DNA of 37,703 bases from Actinomycetota bacterium (GTDB lineage: Bacteria; Actinomycetota; Actinomycetes; Mycobacteriales; JACQDL01), in NCBI GenBank assembly GCA_016201065.1, contig JACQDL010000010.1:1-37703 (forward strand). Reading direction: 5' to 3'. Each line of letters begins with the position of its first letter. The first letter of the stretch is position 1. Below, piece after piece: positions 14,486 through 32,349 of the stretch. The translations under genes were made by a program, and so were the position numbers. The notes below the pieces were generated by a model. That model saw only the letters and a list, made by a program, of their open reading frames with translations, made no database searches and was not told the origin of the DNA.

Positions 14486-15793
14486 AGGAAGGTCACTGCG
14501 GCGCTGGCTGGACTCACCCTGGCGCTGACGGCCTGCGGTTCGGGTGACACGGGGGGGACGGCGGCGACGGCTGCGCCCTCCGGTGTGCGCCTGCCCAACC
14601 TTGCCGGCCAGAGCGTCGAGGTGGCGGCGGTGTGGTCCGGCGCGGAGCAGGCAAGCTTCACCGAGGTGCTGCGCGCCTTCGAGGCGAGGACCGGAGCGAC
14701 GACGAGGTACACCTCGACCGGCGACGACATCGCCACCGTGCTCGGCACCCGGGTCAAGGGTGGCGCGCCACCGGACGTGGCGATCCTCCCGCAGCCCGGG
14801 CTGCTCAACCAGCTCGCCGGCCAGGGCAACCTCAAGCCGGTCGGCAGCGACGCGGCCACCGGGGTGGCCGCGAACTTCGCACCGATCTGGCAGACCCTCG
14901 GCAGCGTCGACGGGAAGCTCTACGGCGTGTGGTTCAAGGCCGCCAACAAGTCGACGGTCTGGTACCGCACGACCGCCTTCGCCCAGGCCGGCGTGACCGA
15001 ACCGGCCAGCTGGGATGCCTTCGTCCAGACCGCCCAGACGATCGCCGACTCCGGCACCACGCCGGTCTCGGTCGGCGGCGCCGACGGCTGGACGCTGACC
15101 GACTGGTTCGAGAACGTCTACCTGCGCACCGCCGGCGCGGACAGCTACGACAAGCTGGCCAGGCACCAGATCCCGTGGACCGACCAGTCGGTGAAGACCG
15201 CGCTGAGCACGCTCGCCGCGGTGTGGGGCAAGAAGGGCCTGCTCGTGCCGGGGGCGAGCCAGACCGACTTCCCGACCTCCGTGACCCAGGTGTTCTCGGC
15301 CAACCCGAAGGGCGCGATCGTCTACGAGGGCGACTTCGTCGCCGGCGTGATCTCCTCCGACACCCCCGCGAAGGTGGGCACCGACGCGAAGTTCTTCAAC
15401 TTCCCCTCGGTCGACGCCTCGCCACCCTCGGTGGTTGGCGGGGGCGATGTCGCGGTCGCGATGAGGGACACCGCCGGGGCGCAGGCGCTGCTGACCTTCC
15501 TGGCCAGCCCGGAAGCCGCGGCGATCTGGGCGAAGCGCGGCGGCTTCACCTCGGCGAACAAGAACCTGCCGCTGTCGACCTACCCCGACGACACCAGCCG
15601 GAAGATCGCCCAGGCGCTGGTCAACGCCGGGGACGCCTTCCGGTTCGACATGTCCGACCTGGCTCCGGCGGCGTTCGGCGGCACCCCGGGCAAGGGTGAG
15701 TGGAAGCTCCTGCAGGACTTCCTCACCAACCCGGCCGACGTCAACGGCACCGCCCAGAAGCTGGAGGCCGCCGCGGCGGCGGCGTTCAGGTGA
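14462..15793 (+). CDS. ABC transporter substrate-binding lipoprotein (carbohydrate type)
   Basis: A 443-residue extracytoplasmic binding protein. The signal peptide ([17 protein letters not shown]) ends in the lipobox LTAC, so the mature protein is lipid-anchored at the Cys near residue 25. The rest has the family 1 solute-binding fold, with [27 protein letters not shown] and [26 protein letters not shown]. Carbohydrate uptake is likely, but the sugar is not identifiable. The first 12 bp are duplicated, giving two in-frame ATGs (14462 and 14474). The upstream GGGGGAG favours the first, although the second would give a more usual signal peptide length. The start overlaps the ATPase stop. Confidence 0.92.
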
Positions 15794-17133
15794 CGCCGTC
15801 CGGCCCGGCCCCGTCTGGCCCGGTCGGGGCTGGCCCGGTCGGGGCTGGCCCGGGACGGCGGGTGCCGTGGCTGGCGCTCGCCTTCCTGAGCCCGGGCCTG
15901 GTCATGCTCGCCGCGCTGGTGGTCTACCCGATCGGCTACACGACGTGGCGCAGCCTGCGGGATGCCTCCGGCCGCAGCTACCTCGGCCTGCACAACTACG
16001 TCACGATGTTCCGCTCGGACTCCACCCGCACCGCGATCGGGAACAACGTGATCTGGCTCCTCGTCGCGCCGACGGTCGTCACCGCGCTCGGCACGGTGTT
16101 CGCGGTGGTCACCGAGCGGGTGCGCTGGGCCACGGCCTTCAAGCTGGTGCTGTTCATGCCGATGGCGATCTCGTTCCTGGCCGCCGGGATCATCTTCTCC
16201 CTGGTCTACGCCGACAACCCGGACCGAGGGTTGGCCAACGCCACGGTGGTCGCGGTGCACGACGTCGTCAGCCCCGCCGCGGCGTACCCGGGCGCCCGCC
16301 CGCGTGACCCCGGCCCGTTCACCCAGCAGGCCGACGGCAGCCTGCGCAGCTCCCGCGGCTACCAGCCGGGCGAGTCGGCACTGGTCGGACTCGTCGGTGT
16401 GCGCCCCACCAGCCTGCCGGCCGGCCGGGTGCCCGCCGTCCCCACGGCGGCCACGCCGGGCACCGTGGGCGGCACCGTCTGGTTCGACTTCGTGCCCGGC
16501 GGTGGTGGCGTACCCGGCGCGATCGACCCCGGTGAGCGGGCGTTGCCGGGGGTGGTCGTGCAGGCCGTCCGGGACGGCACCGTGGTCGCGACGGCGCGGA
16601 CCGGCGACCGGGGTGAGTTCCGGTTCGGCGGGCTGCCGCCGGCGACCTACACGCTGCGGCTCCCCGCGTCGAACTTCACCGAGCCGTTCGCGGGCTTCGT
16701 CTGGCTCGGTCCGACGCTGGTGACCTGGTCGATCATCGGCGGCTACGTGTGGATGTGGACCGGGTTCGCGATGGTGCTGATCGCCGCCGGCCTGGCCGCG
16801 ATCCCCCGGGAGGCGCTGGAGGCGGCCCGGGTGGATGGCGGCACCGAGTGGCAGGTGTTCCGCCGGGTCACCGTGCCGCTGCTGTCCCCGGTGCTGGTCG
16901 TGGTGCTCGTGACATTGATGATCAATGTGCTGAAGGTCTTCGACCTGGTGTTCATCCTGGCCCCGCAGTCGTCCCAGGACGACGCGAACGTCCTGGCGCT
17001 GGAGATGTGGCGGGTGTCCTTCGGCGGCGGGCAGGACCAGGGGCTGGGCAGCGCGCTCGGGGTGTTCCTGTTCCTCCTCGTGCTGCCGGCCATGATCTTC
17101 AACGTTCGTCGGTTCCACCGGGGGCAGCGATGA
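15790..17133 (+). CDS. ABC sugar permease (MalF type) with inserted extracytoplasmic beta domain
   Basis: A 447-residue inner-membrane permease; related permeases are usually around 300 residues. The N-terminus is a Gly/Pro/Val repeat and membrane helices follow at about 27-50, 84-108 and 117-140. An insert of about 170 residues (141-312) then separates helix 3 from the remainder. Within it, residues 226-291 (GGTVWFDF, ALPGVVVQAVRDGTVVATA, TGDRGEFRFGGLPPATYTLR) resemble the SdrD B-type/carboxypeptidase-regulatory-like prealbumin fold. The permease core resumes at WLGPTLVTWSIIGGYVWMW, and the ATPase-coupling EAA loop is EALEAARVDGGTEWQVFRRV (341-360). The insert lies where E. coli MalF has its P2 loop, which contacts the binding protein. 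GTG start overlapping the lipoprotein stop. Confidence 0.88.
   Translation: MTPSGPAPSGPVGAGPVGAGPGRRVPWLALAFLSPGLVMLAALVVYPIGYTTWRSLRDASGRSYLGLHNYVTMFRSDSTRTAIGNNVIWLLVAPTVVTALGTVFAVVTERVRWATAFKLVLFMPMAISFLAAGIIFSLVYADNPDRGLANATVVAVHDVVSPAAAYPGARPRDPGPFTQQADGSLRSSRGYQPGESALVGLVGVRPTSLPAGRVPAVPTAATPGTVGGTVWFDFVPGGGGVPGAIDPGERALPGVVVQAVRDGTVVATARTGDRGEFRFGGLPPATYTLRLPASNFTEPFAGFVWLGPTLVTWSIIGGYVWMWTGFAMVLIAAGLAAIPREALEAARVDGGTEWQVFRRVTVPLLSPVLVVVLVTLMINVLKVFDLVFILAPQSSQDDANVLALEMWRVSFGGGQDQGLGSALGVFLFLLVLPAMIFNVRRFHRGQR
15815..15855 (+). repeat. 15-bp tandem repeat at the permease N-terminus
   Basis: The unit CTGGCCCGGTCGGGG occurs at 15815-15829 and 15830-15844, with a partial third copy to about 15855. 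It encodes the repetitive GPVGAG segment before the first membrane helix. Confidence 0.8.
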
Positions 17134-18011
17134 GCCACCGGACAGCGGCCGGCGGACCGCCGCGGGGTGTGCCCAGCCGGGTGGCCAACCGGCTGGGCAG
17201 CGGCGCGGTGCAGCTCCTGCTGGTGCTCGTCGCGGTCGGCTGGTTGGTCCCGACCATCGGCCTGGCGGTCTCCTCGCTGCGCTCGGCGGAGGACAACAAC
17301 GCCACCGGATGGTGGACGGTCCTCACCAGGCCGGCGCAGCTCACGATCGGCAACTACCAGAAGGTCCTCGACAACCCGCAGATCGTCCAGTCGTTCTGGA
17401 ACACCGTGCTGATCACCGTGCCGGCCACCCTGCTGGTCGTGATCTTCGGGGCACTCGCGGCCTACGCCTTCGCCTGGATCGACTTCCGCGGCCGGGACCT
17501 GCTCTTCATCGGGGTCGTCGGCCTGCTCGTCGTCCCGATCCAGGTTGCGCTGATCCCGGCCGCGGTGCTCTTCGGCATGCTGCACATCTTCGGTTCGATC
17601 ATCAGCGTGATCGCCTTCCACGTCGCCTTCGGGCTGCCATTCGCGATCTTCCTGCTCCGCAACTTCTTCGCCGGGATCCCGCGTGACCTGCTGGAGGCGG
17701 CCCGGATGGACGGCGCGGGGGAGTGGCGCATCTTCCGCAAGGTCATCCTGCCGCTCGGGCTCCCGGCGCTGGCCTCGCTGGCGATCTTCCAGTTCCTGTG
17801 GGTGTGGAACGACCTGCTGGTGGCGCTCGTGTTCGCCGACTCCGACTCCGCCCCGCTGACCGTGCTCCTGCGTGGCCAGACCCGCCAGTTCGGCTCGAAC
17901 ATCGACATCCTCGCGCCCGGCGCGTTCCTGTCGCTGGCCGTGCCGCTCATCGTCTTCTTCTCCTTCCAGCGGTACTACGTGCAGGGTGTCCTGGCTGGCT
18001 CGGTCAAGTAG
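17130..18011 (+). CDS. ABC sugar permease (MalG type)
   Basis: A 293-residue second permease of the importer with the usual six membrane helices. The coupling EAA loop reads RDLLEAARMDGAGEWRIFRK and the C-terminus is FSFQRYYVQGVLAGSVK, typical of MalG-like subunits. It has no insert, unlike its partner. The ATG overlaps the preceding stop (ATGA), with GGGGGCAG upstream. It is the last gene of the operon, and its TAG stop is also the first half of the -10 box of the next gene. Confidence 0.92.
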   Translation: MSHRTAAGGPPRGVPSRVANRLGSGAVQLLLVLVAVGWLVPTIGLAVSSLRSAEDNNATGWWTVLTRPAQLTIGNYQKVLDNPQIVQSFWNTVLITVPATLLVVIFGALAAYAFAWIDFRGRDLLFIGVVGLLVVPIQVALIPAAVLFGMLHIFGSIISVIAFHVAFGLPFAIFLLRNFFAGIPRDLLEAARMDGAGEWRIFRKVILPLGLPALASLAIFQFLWVWNDLLVALVFADSDSAPLTVLLRGQTRQFGSNIDILAPGAFLSLAVPLIVFFSFQRYYVQGVLAGSVK

Positions 18012-18014
18012 CGT
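18009..18014 (+). promoter_or_regulatory. Putative -10 box, leaderless sucraseferredoxin-like gene
   Basis: TAGCGT overlaps the permease stop codon (18009-18011) and lies 7 nt before GTG 18022. This supports 18022 as the start, rather than GTG 18013, which overlaps the box, or GTG 18028. Confidence 0.5.
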
Positions 18015-18021
18015 GCAGGCT

Positions 18022-18933
18022 GTGCCGGTGACGATCACCTCCCCGGAGTGCAGCCGGGCGTCGGAGGCCGACGACGAACCGCTGGCGGGCACCGCGCCGA
18101 CCGGGCCAGGCTCCTGGCTGCTCATCGAGCACCCGGGACCCTGGCCCGCCAGGGACGCCTGGCGGGCGCTCCCACCCGCCGCCGCGGAGGTCTGCGCCCG
18201 GGCCCGGGCACTCGGGATCTCCGTCGGGCTGATCCGGCGTGCCCACCATCGGCGGACCCCGCCGCCGCGGCAGGTCATCCTCGCCTCGTTGCGTGGCGAG
18301 CGCCCGTGGCTGGAGTCCACCGAGCTGGCCGACCTCACCGGCATCACCGGCATCGACCTGGCCGCCCTGGCCGCCGGCCAGCAGCCCCGGTTCGGGCCAC
18401 CCGGTCCGCCGCGGCTCCTGCTGGCCTGCACCCATGGCCGACGTGACCGCTGCTGCGCCCGGCTGGGCCGCCCGGCCGCCGCCGCGCTCGCCGACCACTT
18501 CGGCGACCTCGTCTGGGAGAGCACGCACCTGGGTGGGCACCGGTTCGCGGCCAACCTGCTGTGCCTGCCGGACGGCACCGTACACGGTCGGCTCACCCCA
18601 GACACCGCCGTCCCGGTGGCCCGCGCATGCCTGGCCGGGAAGGTCGTGCTGCCGCACTACCGTGGCCGGGCCGGGTCGCCCGCCCCGGTGCAGGCCGCCG
18701 AGCACACCGTGCGCGTGCACCTGGCCGAACACCGGGTCGACGCGGTGCGGCCACCCGCCGGCAGCACCGGCAGCACCGGCACCGTCCGGCTGACCGTCGG
18801 CGCGGACGAGTACGAGCTCGCCGTGCGCGCCACGCCCGACGAGCCACGCTGGACGTCCTGTGACGACGCCGGGCCCACGCCGACGCCGCGGTACGAGGCC
18901 AGACTCGTGGCGAGCTACCTACGCTCGGGATAA
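18022..18933 (+). CDS. Sucraseferredoxin-like (Apd1/Aim32-type) thioredoxin-fold Fe-S protein
   Basis: A 303-residue protein of the sucrase/ferredoxin-like family. The core carries LLACTHGRRDRCCARLG (Cys136, Cys144, Cys145) and THLGGHRFAANLL (His169, His173). The yeast relatives Apd1 and Aim32 bind a [2Fe-2S] cluster through two Cys and two His with these same motif types, so a redox Fe-S role is likely, although the bacterial function is unknown. It is probably cytosolic, as no signal peptide is seen. It is read separately from the ABC operon from a leaderless promoter. Its last 19 bp overlap the convergent aldo/keto reductase gene. Confidence 0.85.
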   Translation: MPVTITSPECSRASEADDEPLAGTAPTGPGSWLLIEHPGPWPARDAWRALPPAAAEVCARARALGISVGLIRRAHHRRTPPPRQVILASLRGERPWLESTELADLTGITGIDLAALAAGQQPRFGPPGPPRLLLACTHGRRDRCCARLGRPAAAALADHFGDLVWESTHLGGHRFAANLLCLPDGTVHGRLTPDTAVPVARACLAGKVVLPHYRGRAGSPAPVQAAEHTVRVHLAEHRVDAVRPPAGSTGSTGTVRLTVGADEYELAVRATPDEPRWTSCDDAGPTPTPRYEARLVASYLRSG

Positions 18934-19886
18934 CCCAGCGGCGGCGCCGACACGTCGTCGAGGGCCTCCCGGATCTCCACCGGCAGGACCACCTGCTCGG
19001 CCGCGAGCGACGCGACGAGTTGCGCGGCGGTGCGAGCCCCCACGATCGGCGCGACCACACCAGGCCGATCCCGGACCCACGCCAGCGCGACGGCGAGCGG
19101 CGAGGTGCCCAGCCCATCGGCGGCCGTGGCCACCGCCTCGACGATCCGCGACCCCGCCTCGTCCAGATGCCGGCCGACAAACTCAGCCAGCTGCGGGGAG
19201 GCCGCGCGGGAGTCCGACGGCGTGCCGTAGCGGTACTTGCCGGTGAGAACCCCCCGGCCGAGCGGGGACCAGGGCAGCAGGCCGACCCCGGCGTGCGCGC
19301 AGGCCGGCACGACCTCCCGCTCGACACCGCGCTCGACCAGGGAGTACTCGACCTGGCTGGCCACGATCGGGGCCCGCCCCGGCCAGGACCGTTGCCAGGT
19401 CGCCGCCGCCGCGAGCTGCCACCCGCAGTAGTTCGCGACACCGACGTAGCGGACCCGCCCGGAGGAGACCGCGTGGTCGGCGGCCGCGAGCGTCTCCTCC
19501 AACGGCACGTCCGGGTCGTAGCCGGGCAGCTGCCACAGGTCGATGTGGTCGGTGTGCAGGCGGGACAGCGAGGCGTCCAGGGTGGCGAGCAGGTGGCCCC
19601 GGGAGGCGCCCCGACCCATCGCACCCGCCCCGGCCCGACCGAAGGCGTTGGTCGCCAGGGTGATCTCGGAACGTGGCACCACGTCACGCAGCAGCCGGCC
19701 CACGATCCGCTCGCTGGCGCCCTCGCAGTACACATCCGCCGTGTCCAGCAACGTGCCGCCAGCGTCCCGGAACGCCGACAGCTGGGCGGCCGCGTCGTCC
19801 TCGTCGGTGTCCCGGCCCCAGGTCATCGTCCCCAGGGCGAGCCGGGAGACGACCAGGCCGCTGCGCCCCAGCACCCGCTGCTCCAT
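18915..19886 (-). CDS. Aldo/keto reductase family protein with altered catalytic tetrad
   Basis: A 323-residue (beta/alpha)8 protein of the aldo/keto reductase superfamily. It has the family entry LALGTMTWGRDTDED, LLDTADVY, a NADPH-binding C-terminal region VVAPIVGARTAAQL, and full length. Of the catalytic tetrad, Asp48 and Tyr53 are present. The lysine is replaced by Asn80 (ITLATNAFG; the usual form is LATK) and the histidine by Pro121 (DLWQLPGYD; the usual form is DLWQxH). Both codons are unambiguous in the sequence given. It may have lost reductase activity or bind NADPH for another purpose. The ATG at 19886 has a TAGGTT box 8 nt upstream. It is divergent from the LLM gene and convergent with the Fe-S gene. 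Confidence 0.88.
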   Translation of the reverse strand: MEQRVLGRSGLVVSRLALGTMTWGRDTDEDDAAAQLSAFRDAGGTLLDTADVYCEGASERIVGRLLRDVVPRSEITLATNAFGRAGAGAMGRGASRGHLLATLDASLSRLHTDHIDLWQLPGYDPDVPLEETLAAADHAVSSGRVRYVGVANYCGWQLAAAATWQRSWPGRAPIVASQVEYSLVERGVEREVVPACAHAGVGLLPWSPLGRGVLTGKYRYGTPSDSRAASPQLAEFVGRHLDEAGSRIVEAVATAADGLGTSPLAVALAWVRDRPGVVAPIVGARTAAQLVASLAAEQVVLPVEIREALDDVSAPPLGYPERR

Positions 19887-19986: not shown

Positions 19987-21036
19987 ATGCGGCTGGGTCT
20001 CAACCTCGGATACTGGGGCGGCGGTGACGCCGCCGACGACCTCACGCTCGCGAAGGAGGCCGACCGGCTGGGCTTCGCCGTGGTGTGGGCGGCCGAGGCG
20101 TACGGTTCGGACGCGCCGACCGTCCTCGCCTGGGTGGCCGCGCAGACCAGCCGGATCGACATCGGCAGCGCCGTCATGCAGATCCCGGCGCGCAGCCCGG
20201 CGATGACCGCGATGACCGCCGCCACCCTGGACCGGTTGTCGGCTGGCCGGTTCCGGCTCGGCCTCGGGGTGTCCGGTCCGCAGGTGTCCGAGGGCTGGCA
20301 TGGCGTACGGTTCGACCGGCCGCTGGCCCGCACCCGGGAGTACGTGGAGATCGTCCGCCGCGCGCTGCGCCGGGAACGGGTCCGGTACGCCGGGGAGCAC
20401 TACACCCTGCCGCTGCCCGGTGGGGCCGGGAAGGCACTCACCCTGACCGTGCACCCGATCCGCGACCACCTACCGCTGTACCTGGCCGCCGTCGGCCCGA
20501 AGAACGTCGAGCTCGCCGGTGAGATCGCCGACGGCTGGCTGGCGATCTTCTTCGCCCCGGAGCACGCCGCCGCGCAGCGGGCCGGGCTCGCCGCCGGCCG
20601 GGCTCGGGTCGGCGCCACGCTCGAGGGGTTCGACATCGTGCCCAGCGTGCCGGTGGTGATCGGTCCTGACCCGGAGCGGGCCGCCGACCCGATCCGCGGC
20701 TACGCCGCGCTGTACCTGGGTGGGATGGGCAGCCGGCAGACGAACTTCTACAACGCGCTCGCCGTCCGGATGGGCTACCACCGGGCCGCCGCCGAGATCC
20801 AGGAGCGTTACCTGGCGCGAGACTACGCCGCCGCGGCCGCGGCGGTGCCCTGGGAACTCATCGACTCCACGTCGCTGGTCGGGCCGGTGGAGCGGGTGGC
20901 GGAACGGATGCAGGCCTACGCCGAGGCGGGGGTGACGACGCTGTCGGTGACCTGCCCTGCCGGCGACCTGGACGCGCGGTTGGACACGCTGCGTGATGTC
21001 GTACGGGCCGCCGAGCGTTCCGGGGTGACCGAATGA
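19987..21036 (+). CDS. LLM class (luciferase-like) F420-dependent oxidoreductase
   Basis: A 349-residue TIM-barrel flavin/F420 oxidoreductase. It begins MRLGLNLGYWGGGD and has LAKEADRLGFAVVWAAEAYGSDAP, a typical cofactor pocket around IDIGSAVMQIPARSPAMTAM, GRFRLGLGVSGPQVSEGWHG, and LPLYLAAVGPKNVELAGEIADGW. Actinobacterial members usually use coenzyme F420; the substrate is unknown. Translation probably starts on a leaderless transcript. The stop overlaps the uppP start (ATGA), so a core envelope enzyme is translationally coupled to it. Confidence 0.9.
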   Translation: MRLGLNLGYWGGGDAADDLTLAKEADRLGFAVVWAAEAYGSDAPTVLAWVAAQTSRIDIGSAVMQIPARSPAMTAMTAATLDRLSAGRFRLGLGVSGPQVSEGWHGVRFDRPLARTREYVEIVRRALRRERVRYAGEHYTLPLPGGAGKALTLTVHPIRDHLPLYLAAVGPKNVELAGEIADGWLAIFFAPEHAAAQRAGLAAGRARVGATLEGFDIVPSVPVVIGPDPERAADPIRGYAALYLGGMGSRQTNFYNALAVRMGYHRAAAEIQERYLARDYAAAAAAVPWELIDSTSLVGPVERVAERMQAYAEAGVTTLSVTCPAGDLDARLDTLRDVVRAAERSGVTE

Positions 21037-21854
21037 ACCTGGTCCAGGCGGCCGTGCTGGGGGTGGTCCAGGGGTTGACCGAGTTCCTCCCGATCTCCTC
21101 CACCGCGCACCTGCGGATCGTGCCGGCCATCCTCGGCTGGCCGGACCCGGGCGCGGCGTTCACCGCGGTCATCCAGCTCGGCACGATGCTGGCGATCCTG
21201 GTCTACTTCTGGCGGGAGATCAGCCGGATCACCGTGGCCTGGACCCGGGGGTTGGTGAACCGGGAGGTCCGCTCCTCGCTGGAGGCGCGGATGGGGTGGT
21301 ATGTGATCTTCGCCACGATCCCGATCGGGCTCATCGGCCTGGCGTTCTCCGACCAGATCGAGACCGGTGCCCGCAACCTGTGGCTGATCGGCGCGGCCTT
21401 GATCGCCCTCGCCCTCGTGATGCTGCTCGCCGACCGCACCGGCACCCGGGCGCGGGGCGAGAAGGACCTCACCCTGCGTGACGGGCTGCTGGTGGGGTTG
21501 GCCCAGGCGGCCGCGCTCGTGCCGGGGGTCTCGCGGTCCGGGTCCACCATCACCGCCGGCCTGTTCCTGGGGTTGCAGCGGGAGGCCGCCGCCCGGTTCT
21601 CCTTCCTGCTGTCGATCCCGGCGGTCGTGCTCTCCGGCCTGTTCGAGCTGCGCAAGATCGGAGACTCCGGCGGACCCGGACTGGCCGCCACGGCGGTCGC
21701 CACCCTGCTGGCGTTCGGGTCCGGGATCGCCTCGATCCGCTGGCTGCTCCACTACCTGGCGCGGCACAGCACGGCGGTGTTCGCCGGTTACCGGGTGATC
21801 GTCGGCCTGTTCATCCTCAGCCTGCTCGGCAGCGGCCTGCTGGCCGCGACCTGA
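21033..21854 (+). CDS. uppP: Undecaprenyl-diphosphatase (BacA/UppP)
   Basis: A 273-residue integral membrane protein that dephosphorylates undecaprenyl pyrophosphate so the lipid carrier for cell-wall synthesis can be reused; it also confers bacitracin tolerance. Both family motifs are present: GLTEFLPISSTAHL near residues 14-27, carrying the catalytic Glu/His region, and PGVSRSGSTITAGL in the second half. Hydrophobic helices run through the length, which is typical. It is coupled to the LLM gene by ATGA overlap, with no strong ribosome binding site of its own. It starts the conserved row leading towards mshC. Confidence 0.96.
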   Translation: MNLVQAAVLGVVQGLTEFLPISSTAHLRIVPAILGWPDPGAAFTAVIQLGTMLAILVYFWREISRITVAWTRGLVNREVRSSLEARMGWYVIFATIPIGLIGLAFSDQIETGARNLWLIGAALIALALVMLLADRTGTRARGEKDLTLRDGLLVGLAQAAALVPGVSRSGSTITAGLFLGLQREAAARFSFLLSIPAVVLSGLFELRKIGDSGGPGLAATAVATLLAFGSGIASIRWLLHYLARHSTAVFAGYRVIVGLFILSLLGSGLLAAT

Positions 21855-21905: not shown

Positions 21906-22613
21906 GTGCCGACCGTGCTGCTCGTCCGCCATGGCCTCACCGAGGTCACCGGCACCACCCTGACCGGCCGCACGCCCGGCGTCGACCTCGACGACCGTGG
22001 CCGGTCCCAGGCGGCCGCCGTCGCCGAGCGGATAGCGGCGGTCCCGCTGGCGGCCCTGGTGACCAGCCCGCTGGAGCGGTGCGTGCAAACGGCGGAGGCA
22101 CTGTCCCGCGACGGCGTGCGGCCGCAGCTGGATGAGCGGTTCGTCGAGGTCGGGTACGGCGAGTGGACCGGCCGGCGGCTGACCGAGCTGAGCCGCGAGC
22201 CGCTGTGGCGGACCGTGCAGCAGCACGCGTCCGCCGCGACGTTCCCCGGCGGCGAGGCGCTGGCCGCCATGCAGTCCAGGGCGGTGGCCGCGATCCGGGA
22301 CTGGAACGACCGGGTCGGGGAGGCCGCGACGTACGCCGTGTGCAGCCACGGTGACGTGATCAAGGCAATCCTCGCCGATGCGCTCGGTCTGCACCTGGAC
22401 CAGTTCCAGCGGATCGTCGTGCACCCATGCTCGGTGTCGGTCGTCCAGTACACGCCGACCCGGCCCTTCGTGATCCGGATCAACGACATCGGCGGCGCCG
22501 TCACCGACCTGGTGCCGGCCAAACGGGGCCGGCGGCGGCGCCGGTCGGCCGACGCGGTCATCGGTGGCGACGCGGGTGTTCCGGCCGGGCCAGCGCCGGA
22601 ACGCGGGCGTTGA
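21906..22613 (+). CDS. MSMEG_4193-family histidine phosphatase (putative phosphomutase)
   Basis: A 235-residue member of the histidine phosphatase superfamily. The phospho-accepting RHG (residues 8-10) is followed by LTSPLERCVQTAEAL-type helix sequence (here VTSPLERCVQTAEAL), a catalytic Glu region VGYGEWTGRRL, and the second histidine in CSHGDVIKAIL. A basic/Gly-rich C-terminal tail follows the domain. The MSMEG_4193 group is found next to DUF3090 and SCO1664 genes and mshC in actinobacteria; the substrate is unknown. The GTG start at 21906 fits a leaderless transcript. Confidence 0.9.
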   Translation: MPTVLLVRHGLTEVTGTTLTGRTPGVDLDDRGRSQAAAVAERIAAVPLAALVTSPLERCVQTAEALSRDGVRPQLDERFVEVGYGEWTGRRLTELSREPLWRTVQQHASAATFPGGEALAAMQSRAVAAIRDWNDRVGEAATYAVCSHGDVIKAILADALGLHLDQFQRIVVHPCSVSVVQYTPTRPFVIRINDIGGAVTDLVPAKRGRRRRRSADAVIGGDAGVPAGPAPERGR

Positions 22614-22631: not shown

Positions 22632-23195
22632 ATGCCTCGCCAGGTGTACTTCTTCGACCGCCCGGACCGGTTTGTCACCGGTACCGTCGGCGAGCCCGGC
22701 GACCGGACCTTCTACCTCCAGGCGAGCGGGGAGGGACGGACGGTCAGCGTAGCGCTGGAGAAGGTCCAGGTCTCGATGCTCGCCGACCGCCTCGAGGAGC
22801 TGCTCGAGGAGGTCATCCGGCAGCTCAGCGAGGAGCTGCCGACGGAGACCGGGCCGACCGACGCGGACCCGCTCGACTCGCCCGTCGAGGAGGAGTTCCG
22901 GGTCGGCGCGATGGGGCTGGCCTGGGACGGCGAGGCCAGGCTGGTGGTCATCGAGGCCCAGGCGGCCGGGGAGCAGCCCGCCGACGAGGCCACCATCCTC
23001 GCCGACGTCGAGGACGGCCCGGACGCTCTCCGGGTACGGATCTCCGCCGAGACGGCCCGGGCGTTCATCGAGCGGGCGCGCCGGGTCGTCTCGGCCGGAC
23101 GGCCGCCCTGCCCGCTGTGCGGCGGCACGCTTGACCGCGCCGGGCACATCTGCCCGCGCCAGAACGGTTACCGACGCGCCAAACCGGACCCGTGA
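22632..23195 (+). CDS. DUF3090 family protein (TIGR03847 type)
   Basis: A 187-residue actinobacterial protein of unknown function. The N-terminus PRQVYFFDRPDRFVTGTVG is characteristic, followed by YLQASGEGRTVSVALEKVQV. The acidic middle and the strand EEEFRVGAMGLAWDGEAR also fit. The C-terminus is a zinc-ribbon-like CPLCGGTLDRAGHICPRQNG. It is always found with the SCO1664 gene and usually near mshC. It overlaps the next gene by 4 bp (GTGA). Confidence 0.92.
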   Translation: MPRQVYFFDRPDRFVTGTVGEPGDRTFYLQASGEGRTVSVALEKVQVSMLADRLEELLEEVIRQLSEELPTETGPTDADPLDSPVEEEFRVGAMGLAWDGEARLVVIEAQAAGEQPADEATILADVEDGPDALRVRISAETARAFIERARRVVSAGRPPCPLCGGTLDRAGHICPRQNGYRRAKPDP

Positions 23196-23956
23196 CCGGT
23201 CCGCTCGCCCGGGAGCCCGAGCGTCGGGTGCTCGACCCACATGTCGACGCCCCGACGGTGAGCCTTGAGTTGCTGCGCACCGGCACGCTGACGGTCCGCG
23301 GCCGGCTGACCAACGCGAGCAACGCGACCCTGTACTGCGAGGCGTCGACCGCGTCACTGAGCGCGGCGTGCGTGTACAAGCCGGTGCGCGGCGAGCGACC
23401 CCTGTGGGACTTCCCGGACGGCACCCTCGCGGAGCGGGAGGTCGCCGCGTACCTGGTCTCCGAGACGATCGGGTGGAACGTCGTGCCACCGACGGTGCTG
23501 CGCGAGGGCCCGTTCGGCGTGGGGATGGTCCAGCTCTGGATCGAGGGGGCCGAGGAGGAGGATGTGGTGGCGCTGGTCCGCTCCGGCTCAGCACCACTGC
23601 GCCGGATGGCGGTCTTCGACGCAGTGATCAACAATGCCGACCGGAAGGGCGGGCACCTCATCCCGGCGCCCGGTGGTCACGTGTTCGGCGTGGACCATGG
23701 GGTCGCCTTCCACACCCAGGACAAGCTGCGCACGGTGCTGTGGGGCTGGGCGGGGCAGCCGCTGACCGAGGAGGCGGCCCGGGCGTTGGAGCTGTTGCGG
23801 GAGGCGCTCCGGGCCGAGCTGGGTGATCGGCTGGGTGAGATGTTGACCACCTCCGAGGTCTCGGCCACGACCCACCGGGTCGAGCGGCTGCTGCGGACCG
23901 GACGCCACCCGGAACCGTCAGGTGACTGGCCACCGGTGCCATGGCCGCCGTTCTGA
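23192..23956 (+). CDS. SCO1664 family protein (PI3/4-kinase-like fold)
   Basis: A 254-residue protein. Sequence signs of a degenerate lipid/protein-kinase-like fold are a YKPVRGERPLWDFPDGTLAERE segment (invariant Lys and Glu), DAVINNADRKGGHLI (catalytic-loop-like Asp and Asn) and VFGVDHGVAFH (a metal-binding DHG in place of DFG). All three are intact, so phosphotransfer is possible, but no substrate is known. It is coupled to DUF3090 by GTGA overlap. In related genomes mshC commonly follows; here a 7-kb T4SS-like locus lies between them. Confidence 0.9.
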   Translation: MTGPLAREPERRVLDPHVDAPTVSLELLRTGTLTVRGRLTNASNATLYCEASTASLSAACVYKPVRGERPLWDFPDGTLAEREVAAYLVSETIGWNVVPPTVLREGPFGVGMVQLWIEGAEEEDVVALVRSGSAPLRRMAVFDAVINNADRKGGHLIPAPGGHVFGVDHGVAFHTQDKLRTVLWGWAGQPLTEEAARALELLREALRAELGDRLGEMLTTSEVSATTHRVERLLRTGRHPEPSGDWPPVPWPPF

Positions 23957-24420: not shown

Positions 24421-24863
24421 TGCGGGTGCAGACCGACGACGACGTCTACGCCGTCGACAATCACTGGCTGGGTCCGCCCGGCCGTACGTTCGCCTGGCGG
24501 GCGCGGTACTCCGCCTACGCCGTGTTCGGGGGCGCGCTCCTCCTCGTCCTGGCCATCGAGCGGCGGGCCGGAATCGGGTTCGGCTTCTGGTCGACCGCCT
24601 ACGCCATCCTGATCACCGTCGTGATCACCCGCGCCATGATGGGTCTGGTCAACCACGACCGTCCCGTCCGGACGCTGTTCGTCGTGTTCGCGCATGAGAT
24701 CGCCGCACCGCGCCGGAGCACGGAGGGCCATCGCGGCCTGCTCCAACCACGACGCGTTCCGATTCGTCGCCGTCACCCCGGAATGGAGCTGCTTGCCGAT
24801 GTTCGCCAGGATGCGATCCGGGCGCGCCGAGAAGCCCGCGGAGCGCCCGGCTACCTCGGGTAG
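24421..24863 (+). CDS. VirB3/TcpE-like two-helix membrane protein
   Basis: A 147-residue protein of which the first ~95 residues are convincing. A polar start (VYAVDNHWLGPPGRTFAWRA) is followed by two helices (SAYAVFGGALLLVLAI and STAYAILITVVITRAMM) and HDRPVRTLFVVFAHEIAAPR. This layout is like VirB3/PrgI/TcpE subunits, which precede VirB4 in T4SS operons. The last ~50 residues are Arg-rich, with poorer third-position GC than the overlapping VirB4 frame, so the real end may be earlier or a frameshift may lie near 24700. Homology to TcpE is inferred from position and topology. Confidence 0.6.
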
Positions 24864-27483
24864 CGAGCGGTACACGCCCGACATCGCGGTCCGGGAGATC
24901 GTCGACAACCTCACGATCACCCGGGACCGGATCGTCGCGTGGTATCTGCTCGCCCCGCAGCCGTGGTCGTTCCGCTCCGACCGGCAGCGGGAGAGCGTGA
25001 TCGTCGACGGGGCGATGCGGCTGGCCAAGCTCAACGGTCGGCGGATGCACATGCGACGCACCTCCCGCCCGTACCCGGTGCGGGCCTGGGCCGAGGCACT
25101 CGACCGCAACACACCCGACCCGCTGCCGGGAGTGCCCGGCAACGGGTGGTCGGACTTCGTCGTCTCCGAGCAGATGCACCTGCAGGGCCGCTCGCTGGCC
25201 GACCCGGAGACCTACCTCGGTGTCGCGCTGAGCCGGCGCTCGCCCATGGACCGGCTGCTGCACCGGGCGGCCCGCTGGCGGATGGCGGGCCGGATGATGG
25301 GCCCGATGGCCGACCACGAGCTCGCCGCGCTGGACCGCGAGCTCGCCGAGCTGGACTCGGTGCTGGCCGGACCTGGGCTGGAGGCCATGCCGTGCACGCC
25401 CGGGCAGATGGAGTGGCTGCTGCACCGCTCCTGCTCGCTGGGCATGCCGGCGCCGCTGACCCTCCCCGCGGTGAGATCGGCCCACTGGGTCGGCGAGGAC
25501 ATCGCCGAGTTCACCGACCGGGTGCACTGGTACGCCGAGCCGTATGACCAGGTGCTCACCGTGGCGGGCCAGCACGAGGGGCGGCAGCTCGCCCGCTACG
25601 TCGCGGTGCTCACCTTCGGCCGGATGGGCGAGCTGGACATTCCCGGTGGCTCCGAGCCCTACCTGCAGAAGGCGGACCGGCTGCCCTACCCGGTGGAGTG
25701 GTCGGTGACCTTCGACGTGGTGGACGGACAGCTGATCACCGGTGAGATGCAGCGGCAGATGGCCCGCATCGCCAGCCAGAAACGGCACTACGAGGCGGAG
25801 CACGGAATCCGGGCGCCGCTGTCGCTGGACCGGCAGGCCGCCCGCGCCCTGGAGATCGAGGACGAGCTCGCCTCCGGTTTCGACGGCCTCAACACCCGGG
25901 TGCACGGCTGGTGGCGGTGCGCGGTGTCCGGTCGCACCCGCGCGGAGGCCATGGAACGGGCCCGGCAGGTCACCGACCTCTACGCGCCGACCATCTCGGT
26001 GATCCACCCCTACGACCAGTACCGGATGGCGCGCGAGTTCATCCCCGGCGAGCCACTGGCCAACGCCGCCCACCGCCGCCGGATGTCGGTGATCACCACC
26101 GCCGCGGGGGTGCCGGCGGCCACCGCCGCGGTGGGCGACCGGCGCGGCGTCCACCTCGGTGAGACCTGTACCGCCTCGCGCCGGCCGGTGATGTGGGACC
26201 CGTGGTACGCGATGGAGGTCCGGGAGAAGTCCGGCCTGACCCCGATCGTCGGAGACCTCGGTTCCGGCAAGTCCACCCTGGTCGGGCAGATCGTGTACAA
26301 GACGGTCCGGCAGCGGGTGCCATGGGTGATCCTCGACCCGTCCGGGCCGCTGGCCCGGCTGTGCAAGCTGCCCGAGATCGCCCACCACGCGCGGGCGGTG
26401 AACCTGCTCAACGCCGCCCCCGGCTCGCTGAACCCGTACCGGGTGGTCGCCGAGCCGCGGTTCGAGCACTTCCTGGACGAGCGGGACCCGGAGAAGGCCT
26501 GGCACAAGGCGAAGGCGCTCGCCGGCGCCACCAGACGGTCGCTGACCACCGACATCCTGCGGCAGTGGATGCCGCCGGAGATCGCCGACGACCGCGCCAC
26601 CCGGGTGGCTCTGCTCAAGGCGGTCCGGGCGGTCGGCGGCGAGTCCACCAACCACCCCGGCCTGGTGATCGAGGCGTTGCGGCAGATCGGGGACGGGTTG
26701 TCGGAAGCCGCCCAGGCCGCGGCCGAGTTCCTGGACGCCGCCCGGGAGATGCCGCAGGCCCAGCTCGTCCTGCCCGAGGTGCGCGAGCTCGGCGCCGCCG
26801 ACGAGGACGACCTCGGCGACAACCACGAGTTCTATCTCACCGTGCTGACCATGCCGGGCCTGGTGCTCCCGCTCGACGGCGCGGACCGCCGGGACTGGAC
26901 CGACGAGGAGCGGTTCAGCTTCCCCCTGCTGCACCTGGCCTCCTGGCTGACCCAGCGGTCGATCTACGACCGGGACCGGCACGAGCGCAAGGGCGTGGCC
27001 TTCGACGAGACCTGGGTCCTGACCCGGTTGTCGTCCGGCCGGGCCCTGGGCAACCGGACCGCCCGCGACACCCGGAAGTTCAACACCCGGGCGCTGTGGG
27101 CCTCCCAGAACGGCGGCGACCATCTCGCGGCCGGGATCGGCAACCTGGTCGGCGCCTCCTTCATCGGACGTACCACCGAGGCCGAGGCGCAACGCGACGC
27201 GCTGCGGATGGCCAAGATCGAATGCGGTGTGGGGTACGAGGAGACGCTGGCCAAGCTGTCCCCCCAGTCCAGGCGGGCCGAGGGGCGCAGCGGGTTCCGT
27301 GAGTTCATCTTCGCCGACGGCGACGGTGGCGTGGAGAAGATCCGGATCGACATCGAGGCGCACCCCCAGCTCAAGGCCGCGCTGGACACCACCGCCGACC
27401 CGACCAAGGTCCGCCGGCGGGCCCGCCAGCAGGTGCCGGCCGAAGGCGAGACCGCGAGCGACGAGATCGAGGTGCTCGCGTGA
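24799..27483 (+). CDS. VirB4/TraC-like conjugation-type AAA ATPase
   Basis: An 894-residue ATPase resembling the VirB4 energiser of type IV secretion systems. The N-terminal half (to about residue 470) is the VirB4-type membrane-docking region. The motor domain has Walker A GDLGSGKST (485-493), Walker B VAFDETW (Asp736, Glu737) and the glutamine motif LWASQNGGD. The region between them (DNHEFYLTVLTMPGLVLPL) is an insert. The C-terminus is basic, then acidic. ATG 24799 has GGAG 10 nt upstream; ATG 24694 in the same frame is possible, because codon use already looks coding there. It overlaps the previous gene by 65 bp and the next start by 4 bp. No VirD4-type coupling protein is nearby. Confidence 0.85.
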   Translation: MFARMRSGRAEKPAERPATSGSERYTPDIAVREIVDNLTITRDRIVAWYLLAPQPWSFRSDRQRESVIVDGAMRLAKLNGRRMHMRRTSRPYPVRAWAEALDRNTPDPLPGVPGNGWSDFVVSEQMHLQGRSLADPETYLGVALSRRSPMDRLLHRAARWRMAGRMMGPMADHELAALDRELAELDSVLAGPGLEAMPCTPGQMEWLLHRSCSLGMPAPLTLPAVRSAHWVGEDIAEFTDRVHWYAEPYDQVLTVAGQHEGRQLARYVAVLTFGRMGELDIPGGSEPYLQKADRLPYPVEWSVTFDVVDGQLITGEMQRQMARIASQKRHYEAEHGIRAPLSLDRQAARALEIEDELASGFDGLNTRVHGWWRCAVSGRTRAEAMERARQVTDLYAPTISVIHPYDQYRMAREFIPGEPLANAAHRRRMSVITTAAGVPAATAAVGDRRGVHLGETCTASRRPVMWDPWYAMEVREKSGLTPIVGDLGSGKSTLVGQIVYKTVRQRVPWVILDPSGPLARLCKLPEIAHHARAVNLLNAAPGSLNPYRVVAEPRFEHFLDERDPEKAWHKAKALAGATRRSLTTDILRQWMPPEIADDRATRVALLKAVRAVGGESTNHPGLVIEALRQIGDGLSEAAQAAAEFLDAAREMPQAQLVLPEVRELGAADEDDLGDNHEFYLTVLTMPGLVLPLDGADRRDWTDEERFSFPLLHLASWLTQRSIYDRDRHERKGVAFDETWVLTRLSSGRALGNRTARDTRKFNTRALWASQNGGDHLAAGIGNLVGASFIGRTTEAEAQRDALRMAKIECGVGYEETLAKLSPQSRRAEGRSGFREFIFADGDGGVEKIRIDIEAHPQLKAALDTTADPTKVRRRARQQVPAEGETASDEIEVLA

Positions 27484-29438
27484 GCCGACCGACCCGCCGT
27501 GGCGGGTGGGCCGCTGGTGGCCGGCTCAGGCTGAGGGCGCTCGCCCTCGTGCTCGCCGTCGTGGCCGCGCTCGTCGTCACCCCGGCTGTGGCCTACGCCC
27601 TGCCGGGCGACCCGGAGGCACCCGCGCCCGAGAAGCCGGGCGACGGCACCCTCGGCTGGCTCGACAGCCAGGGCGGCCCGAGCCTCGACGGGTCGGTGTA
27701 CGGCAGCTACGGCTACGCCGGCCTGCGCTGGTACACCTACGACCTTGGTGTCGGCGGCGATCTGCGTGACCCGTGGGCCGTGGTCGACACCGGCTTCGGC
27801 AACTGGATGTTCACCGTGGCGAAGTTCATGGTCGCGAGCGCGAACTCGCTGCACCAGGCCAACCGGCCGGACTCGCTGACCGGCCTGGACCCCGTCCTGA
27901 CCAAGGGCACCTCAACGGTGCACGACGCGTTGTTCCAGCCGTTCCTGCCGATCGCCCTGCTGCTGCTGGCGGTGCTGCTGCTGTGGCGCACGCACCGCTC
28001 GGACCTGCCGGCCAGCATCCGGGCGGTCGGCTGGGCGATCCTGGTGATGACGATCGCGATCGGGCTGTTCCAGTACCCCGTCCGCGCGGTCAACGCCGTC
28101 GACCAGGCCGAGTCGGGGACCATCGCGCAGATCGACAACGGCTTCGCCCAGTCGTCGGGGTTGGCCGGGAACGCGACGCTCGCCCAGAGTGAGACGCTGG
28201 TGGACACCGTGCTCTACCGGCAGTGGCTGCGCGGGGAGTTCGGCAACCCGGACTCGGTCGTGGCCAAGAAGTACGGGCGGGACCTGCTCGACGCGCAGGC
28301 ATACACCCGCAACGAGCGGCTGCTGCTGGACAACCGCCCCGACTCGGCCACCGCGCTGGCGCTGCTGAAGAACGGGAAGTACGTCGACACCGCCGGGCGG
28401 GTCAAGGCCGAAGACCCGACGGCGTACGAGTACCTCAGCGGCCACGGGCACAGCCGGATGGGTGCCGGGTTCGTCGCCGTCGCGGTGGCCGCGCCGACGG
28501 CCGGGTTCCGCGCCGTGGCCGACCTCCTGGTCTTCGCCGCCCGGATCATCCTGCGGCTGCTGGTCATCTTCTTCCCCGCGCTGGCGGTGGCCGGGATCCT
28601 GGTGCCGGGACCGGTGCGCACCGCCTTCGTGGCCGGTGCCGCGGCCCTGGTCAACAGCGTCGTGTTCTCCCTCGGCGCGGGTCTCAACGCGCTCGCCGCG
28701 AACATCCTGCTCGGGCCGGACGTGCGTCTGCCCACCTGGCTGGCGGTGGTCTTCCTCGGCATCATCTCGCTGATCATGTGGCGGGCGTTCAAACCCTTCC
28801 GGCACCTGACCGTGATGGTCAACCCGAACCACAACTTCGCCGCCGGCGCGCTGTCCTTCGGCGCCGCGGGCGGGATGTTCCGCCGGTTCGCCTCGGCCGC
28901 CGCCGGCGCCTACGTGGGCACCCGCGCCGCCCGCGACGACGACGAGCCGGACCCGGTGACCCGCAGGTTCCGGCCAGAGACCCATTCGGTCCCCGATCCC
29001 GGCGGTACCGAGCAGACCGTCCGGGTGACGTCGGTCCGGATGGACACCGACGATGTGGGCCTCCCCGGTGTCGGTGCCAGCTCGCCGCTGGCGTTGCCGG
29101 CGCCCCGCTCCGGCTCCCGGACGGTCGGCGCGCCCCGGGGCCTCACCGGCGGACGCACCGAGGATCTGCGGGTCTTCCTCTCCCCGTCGCACGGCGGCGA
29201 CCACGGCACCGACGGTCGGGCGGCGGTGCACGTGACCGAGACCCTCAGCGGCGAGGATCGGCTCCGCCCGGCTGGCGAGGACGCGGCCTTCCGGGACGTG
29301 TTCCGCCCCGGTCACCGGCCCGAACACGCCGGCCGCACGGAGTCGCTGCGGGCCACCGACGCCGAGGTGGTCGACGGCCGAGAGGTGTACGTGATCTACC
29401 GGCCAGGCGGAGGGATGGAGGCTCGTGATGTCCGTTGA
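27480..29438 (+). CDS. VirB6/TrbL-like polytopic membrane protein
   Basis: A 652-residue protein with an N-terminal signal/anchor segment (LRALALVLAVVAALVV, then AVAYALPGD) and an extracytoplasmic region of about 110 residues. Two helices follow at about 157-202 (FLPIALLLLAVLLLW, AILVMTIAIGLF), then a second extracytoplasmic stretch. A cluster of hydrophobic helices lies at about 325-430 (including LRLLVIFFPALAVAGILV and WLAVVFLGIISLIMW), and a polar, probably cytoplasmic, tail of some 190 residues ends the protein. Placement directly after VirB4 and the topology fit VirB6/TrbL, the T4SS channel component. The GTG start overlaps the VirB4 stop (GTGA). Confidence 0.75.
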   Translation: MSRPTRRGGWAAGGRLRLRALALVLAVVAALVVTPAVAYALPGDPEAPAPEKPGDGTLGWLDSQGGPSLDGSVYGSYGYAGLRWYTYDLGVGGDLRDPWAVVDTGFGNWMFTVAKFMVASANSLHQANRPDSLTGLDPVLTKGTSTVHDALFQPFLPIALLLLAVLLLWRTHRSDLPASIRAVGWAILVMTIAIGLFQYPVRAVNAVDQAESGTIAQIDNGFAQSSGLAGNATLAQSETLVDTVLYRQWLRGEFGNPDSVVAKKYGRDLLDAQAYTRNERLLLDNRPDSATALALLKNGKYVDTAGRVKAEDPTAYEYLSGHGHSRMGAGFVAVAVAAPTAGFRAVADLLVFAARIILRLLVIFFPALAVAGILVPGPVRTAFVAGAAALVNSVVFSLGAGLNALAANILLGPDVRLPTWLAVVFLGIISLIMWRAFKPFRHLTVMVNPNHNFAAGALSFGAAGGMFRRFASAAAGAYVGTRAARDDDEPDPVTRRFRPETHSVPDPGGTEQTVRVTSVRMDTDDVGLPGVGASSPLALPAPRSGSRTVGAPRGLTGGRTEDLRVFLSPSHGGDHGTDGRAAVHVTETLSGEDRLRPAGEDAAFRDVFRPGHRPEHAGRTESLRATDAEVVDGREVYVIYRPGGGMEARDVR

Positions 29439-31122: not shown

Positions 31123-32349
31123 ATGCAGTCCTGGCCTCGCCCGAATGTTCCGCGGTTGCCCGGAACCGGTCAGCCCTTGCGGCTGCATGACACCGCCACG
31201 GGCGAGATCCGGCCGACCGCCCCCGGCGCCACCGCGCGGATGTACGTCTGCGGCATCACGCCCTACGACGCCACCCACCTCGGGCACGCCGCGACCTACC
31301 TGGCCTTCGACCTGATCCACCGGCTCTGGCTGGACGCCGGGCACGACGTGCACTACGTGCAGAACGTCACCGACGTCGACGACCCGCTGCTGGAGCGTGC
31401 CGCGCAGACCGGCGAGGAGTGGTCCGTGCTGGCGGCACGGGAGATCGAGCTGTTCCGGACCGACATGACCGCGCTGCGGATCCTGCCACCCCGGGAGTAC
31501 GTCGGCGCGGTCGAGACCGTCGGCGAGGTCGCGGACGGTGTCAGCCGGCTGCTGGCGTCCGGCGCCGCCTACCTGGTCGACGACGACCTGTACTTCTCCC
31601 TCGAGGCGGCGCCCCGGTTTGGCTACCAGTCCGGGCTGGACACCGCCTCGATGCTGACGCTGGCCGCCCAGCGGGGCGGCGACCCGGAGCGGGCCGGGAA
31701 GAAGGACCCGCTGGACCCGCTGCTCTGGCGCGCCGCCCGACCGGGGGAGCCAGCCTGGGACTCCGAGCTCGGTCCCGGCCGGCCGGGCTGGCACATCGAG
31801 TGCGCGGTGATCGCGCTCAACCGCCTCGGTGATGTCATCGACCTCCAGGGTGGCGGGGCCGACCTGGCCTTCCCGCACCACGAGATGTCCGCCGCGCACG
31901 CGGAGTGTCTCACCGGGACGTGGCCGTTCGCGCGGCACTACGTGCACGCCGGAATGGTGTGCCTGGACGGCGAGAAGATGTCCAAGAGCCGGGGCAACCT
32001 GGTGCTCGTCTCGCGACTGCGGGAGTCCGGCGTCGACCCGGCGGCCATCCGGCTGGCGTTGCTGGCCGAGCACTACCGGGCCGACCGGAGCTGGACCTCG
32101 GAGCGTCTGGCGCAGGCCCAGGACCGGCTGACCCGATGGCGAGCCGCGGTGGACCGGCCCGCCGGACCGGGCGCCGCACCACTGCTGGCCGAGGTGCGCG
32201 CCCTGCTTGCCGATGACCTGGCCACGCCGGCCGCGCTGGCGGCGGTGGACCGCTGGGCGGCTGAGGCGACGACCTACGGCGGTTCCGCCGCGGCCGCGCC
32301 GGGCCTGGTCCGGGAGCTGGTGGACGCCCTGCTCGGCGTCGCCCTGTAG
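31123..32349 (+). CDS. mshC: Cysteine:GlcN-Ins ligase MshC (mycothiol biosynthesis)
   Basis: A 408-residue paralogue of cysteinyl-tRNA synthetase that joins cysteine, via cysteinyl-AMP, to glucosaminyl-inositol, the third step of mycothiol synthesis. The zinc Cys43 (MYVCGITPY), the HIGH-type motif HLGH (52-55) and the KMSKS motif (285-289) are all present. It lacks the tRNA-binding C-terminal domain of CysS, so the length fits MshC. It starts from a leaderless promoter. Its stop codon lies at the edge of a 76-bp repeat copied from a flavin reductase gene. Confidence 0.95.

Follow-up and report, generated by a model that had tools for sequence, protein, structure and literature searches.

Missing tetrad residues in an aldo/keto reductase encoded near the mycothiol ligase gene of an actinobacterial genome

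Aldo/keto reductases (AKRs) are usually annotated as reductases on the basis of fold alone. In the standard mechanism, a tyrosine acts as the acid, a lysine lowers its pKa, a histidine orients the carbonyl, and a Ser-Asn-Gln set of contacts holds the nicotinamide. Replacement of the histidine is tolerated in known AKRs, namely Kv-beta (AKR6), which keeps the lysine and has Asn for the histidine, and AKR1D1 (5-beta-reductase), in which the tetrad histidine is naturally replaced by Glu while the lysine is kept, and in which the chemistry is now C=C reduction. Lysine mutants of AKRs are generally inactive. Among the described bacterial enzymes, AKRtyl (AKR12D1) is an active, octameric tylosin reductase whose catalytic residues include Tyr53 and His130, and in which the nicotinamide amide is contacted by Ser160, Asn161, and Gln186 (PMC10923870). 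The Kv-beta proteins, which offer a precedent for a binding or regulatory AKR with slow catalysis, are slow yet functional enzymes (PMC9317154). In the literature searched, with most subscription journals outside the search, no bacterial AKR pseudoenzyme of the kind considered below was found.

The window AKR compared with described AKRs

The AKR analysed here is encoded within a stretch of 37,703 nucleotides (the window) of contig JACQDL010000010.1 from an Actinomycetota bacterium. The gene and its active-site codons, numbered as in a preliminary description of this DNA, are as follows.

18915..19886, minus strand: AKR orthologue, ATG at 19886, 323 aa, open frame without internal stop
19728..19745, minus strand: tetrad residues Asp48 (GAC) and Tyr53 (TAC), both kept
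19647..19649, minus strand: codon 80, AAC (Asn), where orthologues have AAG/AAA (Lys); end of strand beta-3
19524..19526, minus strand: codon 121, CCC (Pro), where orthologues have CAC/CAT (His); just past strand beta-4
19434..19436, minus strand: codon 151, GCG (Ala), where orthologues have Ser; nicotinamide-amide contact

These codons bear out the preliminary description, which had reported Asp48 and Tyr53 as kept, Asn80 in place of the tetrad lysine, and Pro121 in place of the tetrad histidine within an uninterrupted frame, although the interval that it assigned to the protein (19500-19740) spans only the middle of the gene. Its further statement that the NADPH site looks intact holds in part: Asn152 (AAC), Gln178 (CAG), and the WSPLGRG and GAR motifs are retained, but Ala replaces Ser151, the remaining nicotinamide contact, a change absent from that description. 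Thus, of the residues expected of a competent AKR, the aspartate and tyrosine are present, the lysine and histidine are absent, and the Ser-Asn-Gln contacts are incomplete. Each of the three altered codons lies one base away from the expected residue (AAG to AAC, CAC to CCC, and, for Ser, for example TCG to GCG).

Membership of the AKR fold is evident from a full-length match to the Pfam profile Aldo_ket_red (PF00248; residues 15-311, model positions 1-288 of 291, 205.8 bits) and from structural matches. An AlphaFold model built with 41 sequences shows a confident AKR barrel with a mean pLDDT of 91.7; strand beta-3 spans residues 76-80 of the model, and strands 3, 4, and 5 end at or just before residues 80, 121, and 151, respectively, as is usual in AKRs. 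The best structural matches are AKRs at Z of about 40, from DON-detoxifying bacteria, AKRtyl, and Kv-beta. Closest in both sequence and structure are the deoxynivalenol-pathway AKRs DepB and 7utf (40-42% identity, Z about 41), in which, unlike in the window AKR, the aligned lysine and histidine are intact. AKR12D/AKRtyl (8jwk, 8xr2; 39% identity, Z about 40) shares the barrel and, by alignment, the cofactor contacts: Asn161 and Gln186 of AKRtyl correspond to the retained Asn152 and Gln178, whereas Pro121 aligns with the catalytic His130 and Ala151 with Ser160. Kv-beta (31% identity, Z about 40) is more remote, and the beta-subunit-like role raised in the preliminary description finds no support, the window protein scoring 130 bits against a cut-off of 365 for the NCBIfam Kv_beta model; no channel gene was seen beside the AKR gene. 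AKR1D1, which resembles the window protein in its naturally replaced histidine, is distant in sequence. A backup copy was considered and rejected: the only two other AKRs of the genome (40% and 36-39% identical) belong to other subfamilies, and both have the lysine and histidine.

Conservation and recurrent loss of tetrad residues among orthologues

Residue conservation was assessed in an alignment of 275 distinct AKR sequences, that is, the window protein and 274 other orthologues, made up of 80 relatives together with further sequences drawn from the order, from the class, and from two individual families. Among the genomes compared, that of the window is the sole member of its genus and family; families are referred to by codes (f4, f34, and the like). 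With the window counted, Asp48 is present in 275/275 sequences and Tyr53 in 273/275. Among the 274 other orthologues, residue 80 is Lys in 257 and Thr in 17 but in no case Asn, residue 121 is His in 262 and in no case Pro, and residue 151 is Ser in 257. A subfamily with conserved Asn and Pro is consequently rejected (0/274 carry either residue). Of all 275 sequences, that of the window alone is missing both Lys80 and His121. Its nearest relatives, about 75% identical and from other families, have both. As judged from this alignment, the Asn80/Pro121 change belongs to the window's lineage, represented by the family's single sampled genome, and the window AKR is the most stripped form found in the orthologue group. 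That every close homologue carries Lys and His is the outcome that the preliminary description had named as refuting its proposal of a changed function, but the nearest genomes compared belong to other families and are not sister strains.

The departures of the window protein are confined almost entirely to the active site. Of the 124 columns conserved at 90% or above, 121 are unchanged and the exceptions are Lys80, His121, and Ser151; at 85% or above (141 columns) there are four departures, these three plus the conservative Leu184Val. Seven rare residues are found in the window AKR, equal to the median of the set. Its terminal branch exceeds the median but ranks no higher than 60th of 262, and the distance from root to tip falls short of the median. 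On column counts and branch length, general decay or fast evolution of the protein was rejected. Since Lys80 and His121 were noticed precisely for their oddity, their clustering is in part a selection effect and any test of it would be biased; Ser151Ala is the sole independent addition.

Tetrad residues are also missing in other lineages. In all 17 species of family f4 (L113, L114, L141-L155), which fall in one genus by code, residue 80 is Thr and Asn152 is replaced by Gly, residue 178 is Glu in 15/17, and the loop past residue 80 is shorter by about 8 residues or more. The possibility that Thr80 in L113 and L114 reflects an alignment slip at this deletion was rejected, all 17 members having Thr in the same local context. 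In family f34 (L282-L302), the residue at 121 varies between related species while Asp, Tyr, and Lys are retained: 11/21 members carry Gln, Ala, Asp, Ser, or Gly in place of His. One member of family f55 has Gln121. Parsimony on a FastTree phylogeny built without the scored columns, and with modest support near the window, requires two changes between Lys and not-Lys and five between His and not-His. On this tree, Lys80 and His121 have been lost independently in separate lineages. Closely related Ala121 copies from three f34 species have dN/dS values of 0.04-0.14 at dS 0.07-0.10, low values that indicate that tetrad-deficient forms are maintained; a close Thr80 pair in f4 gives 0.10 at dS 0.18. 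Most altered copies sit in the same conserved neighbourhood, with synteny holding in both f4 and f34, and they are therefore orthologues rather than paralogues.

Repeated loss of tetrad residues across lineages suggests that ordinary carbonyl reduction is not the whole function of this AKR. One syntenic orthologue group, present in most sampled Actinomycetia genomes, includes members unable to run the textbook mechanism yet under purifying selection, and so provides a natural experiment on the role of an AKR once carbonyl reduction is gone; such repeated loss within one syntenic family is of greater interest than the window gene by itself.

Further substitutions at these positions were noted. 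The catalytic Tyr53 is replaced by Phe in two orthologues, L098 and L154, the latter also with Thr in place of Lys80. Eleven class-level orthologues (L176, L181, L198, L201, L203, L204, L211-L213, L216, and L220) have Cys at the Ser contact, and in nine of these the adjoining Asn is replaced by Asp; L252, L254, L257, and L261 have Gly at the Ser and Gln contact positions.

Gene neighbourhood

The genes surrounding the AKR gene in the window are as follows.

17872..18933, plus strand: Suc_Fer-like Fe-S gene (PF06999, 68.4 bits), convergent to the AKR gene with a 19-bp overlap
19987..21036, plus strand: F420-dependent LLM oxidoreductase of the Rv3520c type (TIGR03559, 409 bits, cut-off 335), divergent from the AKR gene
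21033-21854, plus strand: UppP (NCBIfam, over cut-off)
21906-22613, plus strand: MSMEG_4193-type phosphomutase, PGM (NCBIfam, over cut-off)
22632-23195, plus strand: DUF3090 protein (NCBIfam, over cut-off)
23192-23956, plus strand: SCO1664 family protein (NCBIfam, over cut-off)
31123..32349, plus strand: mshC, mycothiol ligase (TIGR03447, 663.7 bits, cut-off 485), anchor of the neighbourhood

In most orthologue loci the LLM gene adjoins the AKR gene, and linkage to LLM, UppP, or both recurs in most of them; synteny with UppP, the phosphomutase, and DUF3090 is likewise seen in orthologue loci. With 66-75% identity over 313-323 residues and LLM and UppP adjacent, the window AKR belongs to this syntenic orthologue group. 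Its counterparts in, for example, Geodermatophilus, Blastococcus, Micromonospora, and Lentzea share that identity over their full length and the same divergent neighbours, but these orthologues beside LLM-UppP-PGM-DUF3090 nearly all have Lys80, His121, and Ser151, where the window protein has Asn, Pro, and Ala. SCO1664 is invariably found near msh genes (PMC4255298), and the AKR group stands out as a conserved neighbour of mshC that is still to be explained; in the literature searched, nothing was found that ties this AKR to mshC.

Competing readings of the altered active site

With the lysine, histidine, and serine gone but the predicted fold and the other contacts remaining, the favoured reading is that of a disabled reductase which persists for the sake of binding or sensing, and altered tyrosine-dependent chemistry is its main rival. 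On balance, and with considerable reserve, we regard the window AKR as probably a folded NADP(H)-binding protein of this disabled kind, which has been retained beside the LLM-UppP-PGM-DUF3090-mshC cluster to serve a conserved, non-canonical role. The gene, the syntenic and only copy of an old actinobacterial AKR, has through changes at three codons lost its catalytic lysine and histidine together with a contact to the nicotinamide. Without the lysine the tyrosine would not be activated, without the histidine the carbonyl would not be positioned, and ordinary NADPH-dependent carbonyl reduction would be lost or would proceed very slowly. The protein is probably still able to fold, to oligomerise, and to bind NADP(H), with Asp48, Asn152, Gln178, and the phosphate-side loops as its cofactor contacts, perhaps more weakly or in a different pose; it is the folded barrel and the remaining contacts that suggest that cofactor binding may persist. 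A binding or redox-sensing role may already be present in the orthologue family besides, or instead of, carbonyl reduction, and the main reason to posit such a role is that tetrad-deficient orthologues in other lineages are under purifying selection in the same neighbourhood. Counting against the disabled-reductase reading is the retention of the full tetrad and nicotinamide triad in 222/262 sequences, so that reduction is presumably the usual function. A broader proposal, which we consider doubtful, is that the selected function of the AKR throughout the mshC/UppP neighbourhood is not carbonyl reduction but binding or scaffolding for the cluster in response to NADP(H), which would explain why the protein is retained although its Lys, His, and nicotinamide contacts have gone repeatedly in separate lineages.

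The near-invariance of Asp48 and Tyr53, even in deficient copies, is a better fit to residual tyrosine-dependent chemistry than to a purely structural role, and it is the strongest point in favour of the window protein being an oxidoreductase of altered but real activity. Such an enzyme would work through Tyr53 and the bound NADPH on activated substrates, quinones and alpha-dicarbonyls, for which Lys and His are dispensable. The precedents of Kv-beta and AKR1D1 argue in the same direction, as does f34, whose members keep Lys, Tyr, and Asp while residue 121 varies; the window AKR, however, is without the lysine as well as the histidine and has lost a nicotinamide contact besides, and the general inactivity of AKR lysine mutants makes this account unlikely, if worth serious consideration. 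Rather less probable is an early stage of functional loss, in which the enzyme has become dispensable in the window lineage and its gene has started to decay. Confinement of both changes to that lineage is consistent with such an account, as is the absence of an orthologue from some groups of the order under the cut-offs applied, 104/399 genomes of the order being without a match at E of 1e-100 or below and many f7 members again without one at 1e-85, yet random decay should reach structural columns, whereas the three changed columns are all of the active site, and the branch length is ordinary, the frame open, and the predicted fold confident. The preliminary description had likewise preferred changed function to decay; the placement of the departures, one Leu-to-Val change apart, agrees with that preference, the want of conservation of Asn80 and Pro121 among homologues does not, and the independent recurrence of tetrad loss elsewhere, in copies under selection, partly rescues the idea. 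Error in sequencing, assembly, or binning is highly improbable: the genome is a 65-contig draft and the single representative of its family, such that its bases have no cross-check, but three independent single-base errors would be needed, all in active-site codons, with no frameshift or anything else unusual across 969 bases, at a locus with the expected synteny and for a protein placed normally in the tree. Slightest of all is the likelihood that the AKR works with the Suc_Fer-like Fe-S protein, a partnership raised in the preliminary description from the convergent overlap. That overlap is real (18915-18933), but the Fe-S gene adjoins the AKR gene in the window alone (0 of about 130 orthologue loci with flanks), making a conserved partnership unlikely and leading to its rejection on synteny, and convergent genes are not co-transcribed.

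The true start of the Suc_Fer-like gene is probably inside the open reading frame at 17872..18933. At 15700-17133 lies a sugar ABC permease-like open reading frame whose translation has an apparent long extracytoplasmic insertion. Between SCO1664 and mshC, at 24694-29438, are two large open reading frames of 929 and 652 aa, the former of which weakly matches a conjugal-transfer ATPase (TcpF, 76 bits, cut-off 1100).
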